Origin: Thiohalophilus thiocyanatoxydans
GTDB lineage: Bacteria > Pseudomonadota > Gammaproteobacteria > UBA6429 > Thiohalophilaceae
DNA length: 64,000 nucleotides
Reading direction: 5' to 3'
Assembly: GCF_004366735.1 (NCBI RefSeq)
Contig: NZ_SOQX01000010.1
Location: 1 to 64,000, forward strand
Below, in pieces: positions 23,095 to 25,342 of the stretch. The translations under genes were made by a program, and so were the position numbers. Below the pieces are notes generated by a model. The model was not told the DNA's origin and did no database searches. It worked only from the letters and a program-made list of their open reading frames with translations. Each line of letters starts with the position of its first letter. The first letter of the stretch is position 1.

Positions 23095-23511
23095 ATGTAT
23101 CGGGCCGGATCACGCATGGCTGCTGAGAATTCACACACAACGCGACTGATCGACTGTGACGCCGGCAGACGGCTGGGCTGCCAGTCTTTTTGCTGCCACT
23201 TGCTGGTGCGGCTCAAACCCCATGAAATGGAACAAACAGACGACGGGACACCGCCGAAAAGTTTCATCGACAAGGACGCGGAGGGCTACTGTACTCACTT
23301 CGATAAACAAACATCACTGTGCGGCATCTGGGCGCAGCGCCCGGAGGTTTGCCGGGAATACGAATGCAACACGGATGTCATGCTGCAGATTGCCCTCAGG
23401 GAAGAGTTTCGGAATATCGTCGAACTGGCCAGAAAAGCGGTAACAACCTACATTCCGGCAGAAACCTACACATTCATTCCCGAAATCGACAGCGATGAAA
23501 AGGAAAAGTGA
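23095..23511 (+). CDS. YkgJ-type cysteine-cluster protein
   Basis: A small protein of 138 residues from ATG 23095, or 131 from ATG 23116. Eight cysteines lie at about 21, 29, 33, 34, 66, 76, 86 and 91 (CDAGRRLGCQSFCC, CTHFDKQTSLCG, RPEVCREYEC). The pattern fits the UPF0153/YkgJ family thought to chelate Zn or an Fe-S cluster. Function is unknown. It stands alone between recQ and the transposase; an AT-rich segment about 30 bp upstream may hold its promoter. Confidence 0.75.
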   Translation: MYRAGSRMAAENSHTTRLIDCDAGRRLGCQSFCCHLLVRLKPHEMEQTDDGTPPKSFIDKDAEGYCTHFDKQTSLCGIWAQRPEVCREYECNTDVMLQIALREEFRNIVELARKAVTTYIPAETYTFIPEIDSDEKEK

Positions 23512-23580
23512 AACACCGCTCATAAAGTACGCGGGATTACCCTCAAGGACAATATCGCCACGGCCGATTTAACCAGCGGA

Positions 23581-23610
23581 CAATTCCGGGGACAGTATAC
23601 CTATTTCTCT
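23581..23610 (-). repeat. inverted copy of the RAYT-flanking 34-bp repeat
   Basis: CAATTCCGGGGACAGTATAC followed by CTATTTCTCT. It is the reverse complement of the units at 24334-24437. It overlaps the end of the transposase gene: its GAGAAATAG supplies the last two codons and stop. Confidence 0.85.
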
Positions 23611-24287
23611 GCGTTCACCATCGGCTTTCGGCCAGGCTTTTTCCGAGCCAACGCTTTTCCAGTTAGCGATTCAAGTTCAGCAATAAATTGGTTATTACCC
23701 AGCGGTCTGCCTGTCCGTGTGTGTTGTTGAATGTGTTGTTGAATGTATTGGTGAGTGATCTGTGTTTCCTGTACGACTGACAGATAGGCTTCCCAGTCAT
23801 CAATCCGCTCCAACATCGGTCTCACTGATACCAGGCTATCATCTATGCCCGCAATGTGGGCGGCTGCGCTTGACCAGGGCCAATCGATCGGGTGACGGCA
23901 TAATCGTGCCGCAACCGGGTTACGCTCAACATAGCGAACGGTTGCCAATAGGTACTGTTCATCCATAACGAATGAATGAAACCGTTCTTGCCATAAATGT
24001 CCACGCCAGCCCTCACGGAAATTGATATGGCGCGTATAATGCCGATGCGCTTCCCCCAGCACGGCCCGTAGCCCATCCTCATCACCGGGAACCATAACCA
24101 GATGCACATGATTCGGCATTAGGCAATAAGCCCAGATTTCGGCGTCAGAGGTGGCGACGGCTTCGGACAGAAGCTGAATATAATAGCGATAGTCGTCGTC
24201 ACAAAAAAAGGTCTTTTGGCGGCGATTTCCTCGTTGCGTAACATGATGAGGGTAACCGGGCACAACCACCCGTGGCATCCTGGCCAT
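23601..24287 (-). CDS. REP-associated tyrosine transposase (RAYT, Y1/HUH family)
   Basis: A 228-residue single-strand DNA transposase-like protein. The HUH pair is His60 and His62 in MPNHVHLVMVPG. The probable catalytic tyrosine is Tyr119 in TVRYVERNPVAARL. The N-terminus MARMPRVVVPGYPHHVTQRG and the C-terminal tail RPLGNNQFIAELESLTGK then KKPGRKP are typical. It is bounded by copies of a 34-bp repeat, three upstream in tandem and one inverted at its 3' end. All motifs are intact, so it is likely active. Its relation to the GTAG REPs of this window is suggested, not shown. Confidence 0.93.
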   Translation of the reverse strand: MARMPRVVVPGYPHHVTQRGNRRQKTFFCDDDYRYYIQLLSEAVATSDAEIWAYCLMPNHVHLVMVPGDEDGLRAVLGEAHRHYTRHINFREGWRGHLWQERFHSFVMDEQYLLATVRYVERNPVAARLCRHPIDWPWSSAAAHIAGIDDSLVSVRPMLERIDDWEAYLSVVQETQITHQYIQQHIQQHTRTGRPLGNNQFIAELESLTGKALARKKPGRKPMVNAEK

Positions 24288-24333
24288 CTTTGCACCTCCT
24301 TGTGCATGAACTCGTTGTCAATAGTCTAACAAT

Positions 24334-24437
24334 GGTAGAGAAATAGGTATACTGTCCCCGGAATTGGGGTAGAGAAATAGGTATACTGTCCCCGGAATTG
24401 GGGGGTAGAGAAATAGGTATACTGTCCCCGGAATTGG
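24334..24437 (+). repeat. three tandem copies of the RAYT-flanking 34-bp repeat
   Basis: Units start at 24334, 24368 and 24404, each GGTAGAGAAATAGGTATACT followed by GTCCCCGGAATTGG. They lie 46-150 bp upstream of the transposase start and contain a GTAG. They are directly adjacent without spacers, so this is not a CRISPR array. They may be the cleavage substrate or control region of the gene. Confidence 0.88.
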
Positions 24438-24552
24438 AAGTTCCGTCCGGGGTTGTCTCCTGATGCAGCCCACAAATGCGGGGCAAAAGGGCGCACCCGA
24501 CAACAAACCGGCAGGTTCAGCAAAATAAGGCGAAGAAAAGGTGTTCAGGAAA

Positions 24553-24628
24553 TGGTGCCGGCGATAGGAATTGAACCTACGACCCACGCATTACGAATGC
24601 GTTGCTCTACCGACTGAGCTACACCGGC
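24553..24628 (-). tRNA. tRNA-Thr (anticodon CGT)
   Basis: The 76-nt minus-strand sequence begins GCCGGTGTAGCTCAG, has the anticodon stem CGCAT/ATGCG around CGT, the T arm GGTTCAATTCC, and encoded CCA. It decodes ACG. Its 5' end lies 8 bp after the fur-like stop codon, so it may be processed from that transcript or use a promoter inside the gene. Confidence 0.96.
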
Positions 24629-25161: not shown

Positions 25162-25196
25162 AGTGACGAGGGCCGAGGAACGAGTAACGAGGCCAA
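25162..25196 (+). repeat. heptad array upstream of the fur-like gene
   Basis: Units AGTGACG, AGGGCCG, AGGAACG, AGTAACG, AGGCCAA. Same type as at lpd and thiO, in the divergent-looking gap between fur and the 3' end of thiO. Confidence 0.75.
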
Positions 25197-25201
25197 AAGG
25201 A

Positions 25202-25266
25202 ACCACGAAGGCGCGAAGACTCGAAGAGTCAACAATGACAACTTCGTGGCTTCGAGTCTTCGTGGT
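25202..25266. repeat. inverted repeat element in the fur-thiO gap
   Basis: ACCACGAAGGCGCGAAGACT pairs with AGTCTTCGTGGT, with CTTCGTGG and CGAAGACTCGAAG motifs repeated inside. It resembles the dispersed CGCAGAG-type elements in layout, but the sequence differs. Flanked by heptad arrays on both sides. Confidence 0.7.
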
Positions 25267-25307
25267 GAAATTTTTCGACGACATTGGCAGGGCGTAGAAT
25301 CCGCGCA

Positions 25308-25342
25308 TTTCCTCGTCCCTCGTTACTCGTCCCCCGGCCCTC
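25308..25342 (-). repeat. heptad array at the thiO stop codon
   Basis: Read on the minus strand it is identical over 33 bp to 20468-20500 at the lpd stop: GGGCCGG, GGGACGA, GTAACGA, GGGACGA. It encodes the G-P-G-D-E tail and TAA of thiO. Confidence 0.85.

Follow-up and report, generated by a model that had tools for sequence, protein, structure and literature searches.

The gene at positions 23601-24287 (minus strand) of the window, by which we mean the whole analysed stretch of 64,000 nucleotides, most probably belongs to a TIRtron. It would encode a TIRYT, that is a relative of the RAYT proteins within the HuH/Y1 superfamily, and it is enclosed by inward-facing terminal inverted repeats (TIRs) of 25 bp, which would be the recognition ends of the enzyme. 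Judging from the sequence comparisons described here, we assign this reading a probability of roughly 0.88. In such a unit the enzyme would bind both TIR ends and nick one strand at each of them, and would thereby move or copy the DNA that a pair of TIRs encloses, be it the gene unit or a short pair without the gene. Positions 2, 7 and 8 of GGGGACASNWTAY may, with a probability only slightly above one half, be read through residues 104, 101 and 97 of the enzyme, which are located in the segment before strand 4, and the tandem copies upstream of the gene would arise by local duplication of an end.

The open reading frame comprises 228 codons from ATG to TAG and contains no internal stop codon. 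On one side it is flanked by a gene for a CxxCxxCC-domain protein, which we take to be YkgJ-like, and on the other side by tRNA-Thr (24553-24628) and a Fur-family gene. Upstream of the latter, the window also contains nested inverted repeats (25168-25342) with 25-nt arms that are 92% (outer) and 84% (inner) complementary and that, judged by eye, are unrelated to the TIR. A Pfam profile search of the 228-aa protein detected the Y1_Tnp domain (E 6.1e-11) and no HTH family at E <= 0.001, and the catalytic residues H60, H62 and Y119 are invariant among 88 aligned sequences. The sole NCBIfam match was the model for the REP-associated tyrosine transposase (REP_Tyr_transpos), with 75.9 bits and thereby below the cut-off of 80. 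The predicted structure of the protein (pLDDT 91) has C-terminal helices at residues 177-192 and 199-209, and its best solved match is 4er8, i.e. TnpAREP with a REP hairpin.

Four TIR copies surround the gene. The downstream one (23582-23606, plus strand) is inverted in regard to the other three, which are located on the minus strand: copy 1, nearest to the start codon, at 24341-24365 (repeat unit 24332-24367), copy 2 at 24375-24399 (repeat unit 24366-24401) and copy 3, the outermost one, at 24411-24435 (repeat unit 24402-24437). The three direct copies upstream of the transposase start (24332-24437), which an earlier note on this DNA had described, are thus confirmed, with a spacing of 34 and 36 bp and 94-100% identity to the reference copy. 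The same is true for the statement that the inverted 3' copy supplies the last codons and the TAG: this copy (23581-23610) matches the upstream copies to 100% over 30 nt, 30 bp being common to all four, and the end of the gene, GAG AAA TAG (Glu-Lys-stop, with the stop codon at 23603-23601), lies inside it. GTATAC, which had been ascribed to every copy, is indeed present in all four, as is GGGGACAG, which represents the GGGGWSAS motif. In contrast, the GTAG that had likewise been ascribed to each copy occurs in the three upstream ones only, since the 3' copy reads GCAG, and its position does not belong to the 25 bp that relatives conserve. When up to two mismatches were allowed, GGGGACAGTATAC was found five times in the window, including four exact occurrences that are all at the locus, whereas 100 shuffled controls gave 0.75 occurrences on average and never more than 3. 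A literature search for GGGGACAGTATAC retrieved no paper, and the listed matches to GGGGACAGTATA and CGGGGACAGT were, by title, on unrelated subjects.

The repeats of the window recur at the ends of related genes. We compared the window with 80 loci of named genomes, i.e. the best 80 of at least 558 relatives, which are 51-68% identical over the best segment and are close relatives rather than a random sample. Across these 81 loci the end repeat has 25 bp and the form AAWTCC-GGGGACA[G/C]NWTA[C/T]-TTAWTT, with the core numbered from 0 to 12. An unbiased search for inverted repeats in the 400-bp flanks (one of the 80 loci, L174, was dropped because it has no upstream flank) gave 59 of 79 loci that beat the best of 79 shuffled controls, and the median score was 17.0 for the own flank pairs of a locus versus 10.0 for 400 swapped pairs. 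A motif matrix, which was trained on the same flanks as it scored and for which the highest of 162 reversed flanks served as threshold, identified the motif, with the window counted, in 74 of 80 upstream and 68 of 81 downstream flanks; 64 of 80 loci have it at both ends and 78 of 80 at one end at least. In 14 of the 81 loci, the downstream flank contains no motif that scores above 8. The scored copies face inward; an additional motif of opposite orientation occurs in 18 of 161 flanks, and some of these copies belong to paired units. In two such loci, L138 and L182, a two-TIR unit (83 and 92 bp) is located on each side of the transposase gene.

The two ends of a given locus also correspond to each other. 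At positions 7-9 they agree in 2.69 of three bases, compared to 1.43 between loci (62 loci), and an agreement as high as this was reached in none of 5000 permutations. The earlier proposal of an enzyme that lies between its own recognition sites is supported by the motif counts and by this matching of the ends. As to the concern that the repeat might be missing near orthologous RAYTs and occur elsewhere independently of them, the first part is rejected by the same counts, but gene-free copies do exist elsewhere.

An intact gene together with a downstream motif is present in 66 loci, the window being one of them. In 46 of these, the motif overlaps with the end of the gene, and in 29 (28 of 65 without the window) it has the same register as in the window and covers the last codon and the stop codon, so that the stop-supplying repeat is a recurrent design. 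The stop codons at this register are TAA (17) and TAG (13) but never TGA, where the 30 codons include that of L119, which has an internal stop and was left out of the offset counts. The loci without an overlap, in contrast, use TGA in 11 of 20 cases. Read along the gene, the TIR usually has AAWTAA or AAATAG at its inner end. Overlaps of TIRs with a gene end are already marked as 5'ov or 3'ov in the available text of Di Nocera et al. 2013 (PMC3733652). There are also two observations that we regard as leads only. Within the TIR, positions -4 and 16 can pair in 72% of the cases versus 52% in shuffled ones, and positions -3 and 15 in 84% versus 79%, with the other mirror positions pairing at or near chance; however, the overlap with the stop codon constrains the inner end of the TIR as well. 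The second lead concerns an association of residue 220 (R/P) with TIR positions -4 and 16.

The part of the analysis that looks new, and that seems more interesting than the stop codon, is the link between residues 97, 101 and 104 of the enzyme and TIR positions 8, 7 and 2, which was also seen out of sample. A paper by Bertels and colleagues from 2017 deals with RAYT groups and may mention the residue association. In the literature on RAYT coevolution and specificity that we searched, only PMC2817692 and PMC6006769 are RAYT papers by title, and neither the consensus of 25 bp nor the fixed register of the stop codon nor the residue-base association appears in the available part of the text of PMC3733652.

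In alignment A2, which comprises 77 named loci (of the 80, L119, L127 and L174 were left out), residue 101, located in WQ-x-RF, is the column most informative on TIR position 7 (0.74 bits, with 0.38 for the next column; 71 rows). C7 goes along with Gly101 in 32 of 32 training rows and G7 with Glu101 in 33 of 39. Seen from the protein, Glu101 is accompanied by G7 in all 33 training rows and in all 20 validation rows with a TIR, while Gly101 is found in validation with G (17), C (15) and T (5). For this validation new loci were fetched and positions 7-9 were masked in the matrix; removal of near-duplicate proteins reduced 104 rows to 87, and a TIR could be read in 57 of these. In a set of 58 loci, duplicates were removed after the presence of a TIR had been required. 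Here, after training on the first set, residues 101 and 104 together predicted TIR position 7 correctly in 48 loci (nearest training protein 38, majority base 37), residue 104 predicted position 2 in 55 (41 and 42) and residue 97 predicted position 8 in 46 (42 and 33). Residue 101 alone was no better than the majority base at position 7 (36 versus 37 of 58), because Gly101 occurs with G (17), C (16) and T (5), and the combination of residues 97 and 101 predicted position 8 in 40 of 58 loci, which is worse than the 42 of the nearest protein. Most of the Gly101 rows with G7 belong to a separate subfamily, as 13 of 17 have Gly104 and 12 of those have T at TIR position 2.

Since 18 of the 58 loci had been fetched, and most of them also inspected, before the hypothesis was formulated, the 40 later ones were counted apart. 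In these, residues 101 and 104 gave the correct base at position 7 in 31 loci (nearest protein 24, majority 26), residue 104 at position 2 in 38 (27 and 31) and residue 97 at position 8 in 35 (30 and 25), and Glu101 was accompanied by G7 in 15 of 15. Among the 18 earlier loci, residue 97 was correct in 11 versus 12 for the nearest protein. In a pairwise alignment, residues 101 and 104 are opposite to H101 and R104 of TnpAREP from E. coli; a profile alignment results in the same pairing but is weak at that place. H101 and R104 are listed among the GTAG-recognising residues in the available text of PMC6006769, whereas R97, which is opposite to residue 97, is outside of the list given there.

The link between residues and bases is an association and not a demonstration of contact. 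It is well conceivable, if somewhat short of an even chance, that it reflects nothing but shared ancestry, with related enzymes keeping related TIRs without any contact between the two. TIR position 7 and residue 101 are indeed clustered on the protein tree (16 changes at position 7, compared to a shuffled mean of 28.5), and the tree is poorly resolved, with two to three independent contrasts on well-supported branches, which are too few for a test. However, shared ancestry would not readily explain that the residues predict TIR positions 7, 2 and 8 better than the nearest training protein does, nor that they lie in the part of the protein that aligns with the GTAG-reading segment. Moreover, the best tree, taken as a whole (132 rows), contains 14 disjoint pairs with a difference in G7; Glu101 changes in the same way in seven of them, in the opposite way in none and not at all in the other seven. 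For the seven informative pairs, which are on branches without full support, the two-sided sign test gives 0.016. One MAG encodes two sister enzymes, L150 and L159, of which the former combines Glu101 with G7 and the latter Gly101 with C7. We lean slightly towards the view that TIRYT enzymes use a compact code in which residues 104, 101 and 97 specify TIR positions 2, 7 and 8, by means of the segment with which TnpAREP reads GTAG.

The tandem copies in front of the gene had been taken as a sign of self-regulation, and one could imagine a domesticated enzyme for which the repeats serve as operators, with the tandem copies autoregulating the gene. The position of three copies just upstream of the start codon and the low copy number agree with such a role. 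Nevertheless, we consider it improbable, since two or more copies are equally frequent upstream and downstream (14 of 81 loci each) and since the promoter-like sites in 23500-24560 number two versus 1.5 expected, one of them being inside the gene and the other on the plus strand at the array, from where it reads away from the gene. No promoter-like site is present on the gene's strand within the array, and the proposed self-regulation is not upheld by these results. The simpler account is that the upstream copies are extra ends resulting from local duplication and no regulatory array.

In regard to its class, the locus fits a new member of the known TIRYT/TIRtrons, which have been described as RAYT-like genes between terminal inverted repeats that contain GGGGWSAS (PMC3733652). 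It shares with them the HuH/Y1 domain with its catalytic residues, the perfect inverted pair of 30 nt and the motif in all four copies, and TIRs that occur in genomes as single, dimeric or grouped copies are likewise described in the available text of that study. Twenty of 26 TIRYTs belong to subclass 2.1 of the TnpAY1 proteins (Quentin et al. 2018, PMC6006769), near whose genes, according to the text available, no REP-like repeats are found. The protein studied here resembles this subclass in its NHVH, W-Q and Y-x-x-x-NP motifs and in having no REP nearby, and its length of 228 aa can be compared to the median of 238 aa stated there. The subclass has a C-terminal domain that resembles a helix-turn-helix; for the present protein, the structure model gives the two C-terminal helices named above, and the Pfam search gave no HTH family.

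There are also similarities to the RAYT/TnpAREP proteins with their REPs and REPINs, as far as these are described in the available texts of PMC2817692 and PMC8266576: a HuH/Y1 enzyme between inverted repeats, a coevolution of repeat and enzyme at the level of the tree, REPs near the stop codon and, for REPINs, short gene-free inverted pairs, which we found in other genomes. The locus differs in that it does not possess a GTAG-headed hairpin (GT[AG]G at the hairpin foot). A stable fold was sought for single repeats as well as for the array and none was found; the minimum free energy of the repeat is 0 on either strand, and 200 of 200 shuffles were as good. The REP label was tried for the repeats and rejected, as they do not fold and GTAG is not conserved. 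A classical RAYT that reads a GTAG-headed hairpin is very unlikely, since the common superfamily, the REP-bound TnpAREP as best solved match, the REP-associated transposase as best NCBIfam model and the GTAG in three of four copies are outweighed by the NCBIfam score below the cut-off, by the missing fold on both strands and by a GTAG position that is outside the conserved 25 bp and changed to GCAG in the 3' copy. To the IS200/IS605 elements (IS608, ISDra2) there is a likeness in the catalytic fold, as far as the structure model indicates, but the repeat has no hairpin and the genome contains no second near-identical copy of the gene.

Some more distant relatives do have hairpin ends, with -7.0 and -4.9 kcal/mol in two examples. 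In L063, L070, L309 and other distant RAYTs, which are 36-41% identical, palindromic end repeats are found in a similar frame (AATCAAGGGGTCAGACTCCTTGATT; AAAAGGGGACGCTACCCTTTT), which possibly bridge TIRs and REPs. Relatives of the enzyme are also encoded on eight viral contigs of 16-32 kb (L185-L192), and the three viral loci left after duplicate removal have ends of the GGTGACAG type.

In its own genome (2.9 Mb) the core occurs seven times exactly, including the four copies at the locus, and ten times if one mismatch is allowed, compared to one occurrence of the reversed control. Nine places are within three mismatches of the 25-bp form, again including the four at the locus, and none was found with the reversed control. 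Among the 369 genomes of the class, 30 contain the exact core (reversed control: four) and 143 encode relatives of the enzyme at E <= 1e-20, not all of which have the same type of ends. The gene itself is present in one copy in its own genome, and the six other RAYT-like matches are at most 47% identical, this value being reached over a piece of 51 residues. The best full-length paralogue (L012) is 36% identical and is flanked, within 400 bp on either side, by another inverted repeat, AAGGGGTCAAAGCCCTTT. A distant RAYT-like gene on contig C1 (L015; 29% identity over 100 residues) has in its 400-bp flanks an inverted repeat of 48 nt that begins with GTAG, so that the genome may harbour a system of the REP type as well.

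The earlier view of the locus as a mobile unit is in line with the observation that the gene comes and goes: the sister species G369 from the same genus has no match to the enzyme at E <= 1e-30. A search for relatives of the locus on plasmids gave no match either. The synteny with G369 extends to the end of the presumably YkgJ-like gene and resumes at tRNA-Thr, with other DNA in between. At the same intergenic spot of G369 (locus L194, about 510-1010) there is a C-terminal remnant of a different RAYT near inverted arms of the GGGTCAGGGTAAAAACT type. Because of this other DNA and the remnant there is no clean junction, and the search for an exact empty site in the sister species found none. Together with the single gene copy, this leaves present-day transposition unsupported. 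Two solitary copies in the own genome, one after what we take to be mfd and one beside a presumably thioesterase-like gene, have decayed counterparts at shared sites in the sister species, so that they probably predate the split of the two species. Judged by record title, the relatives span 10 phyla (76 of 77 named loci in the tree), and the tree requires 20 phylum changes versus 29.0 in shuffles, which indicates a vertical signal besides possible transfer, with binning errors being possible as well.

Copies without an adjacent transposase gene occur in other genomes. In the fetched stretches of G265, G093 and G360 we identified gene-free inverted pairs that are 58-94 bp apart, whereas no REPIN-like inverted pair with a short spacer is present among the nine places in the own genome. 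In the class genome G024 (1.6 Mb) the 13-bp core is found 100 times in its exact form, and there is no RAYT relative at E <= 1e-20; in 13 fetched stretches (L209-L221) these copies form clusters, inverted runs and tandems, the spacing of the latter (about 33 bp) being similar to the 34 and 36 bp of the array in the window. The gene-free pairs and the clusters of G024 look like non-autonomous units in the style of REPINs.

In the available texts of PMC3733652 and PMC6006769, the recognition of hairpin-less ends by TIRYTs is left open, and for the C-terminal domains the latter considers that they are either not directly involved or have evolved towards a new target. The residue-base association makes this kind of recognition testable by one substitution and short oligonucleotides. 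If the association is based on a direct reading of the DNA, the TIR core would be the counterpart of the guide tetranucleotide of IS200 elements and REPs, and one or two substitutions might suffice to alter the specificity for the ends, such as an exchange of Glu101 for Gly together with a change from G7 to C7. The association would also link the way in which REP guides are read to that in which TIRs are read.
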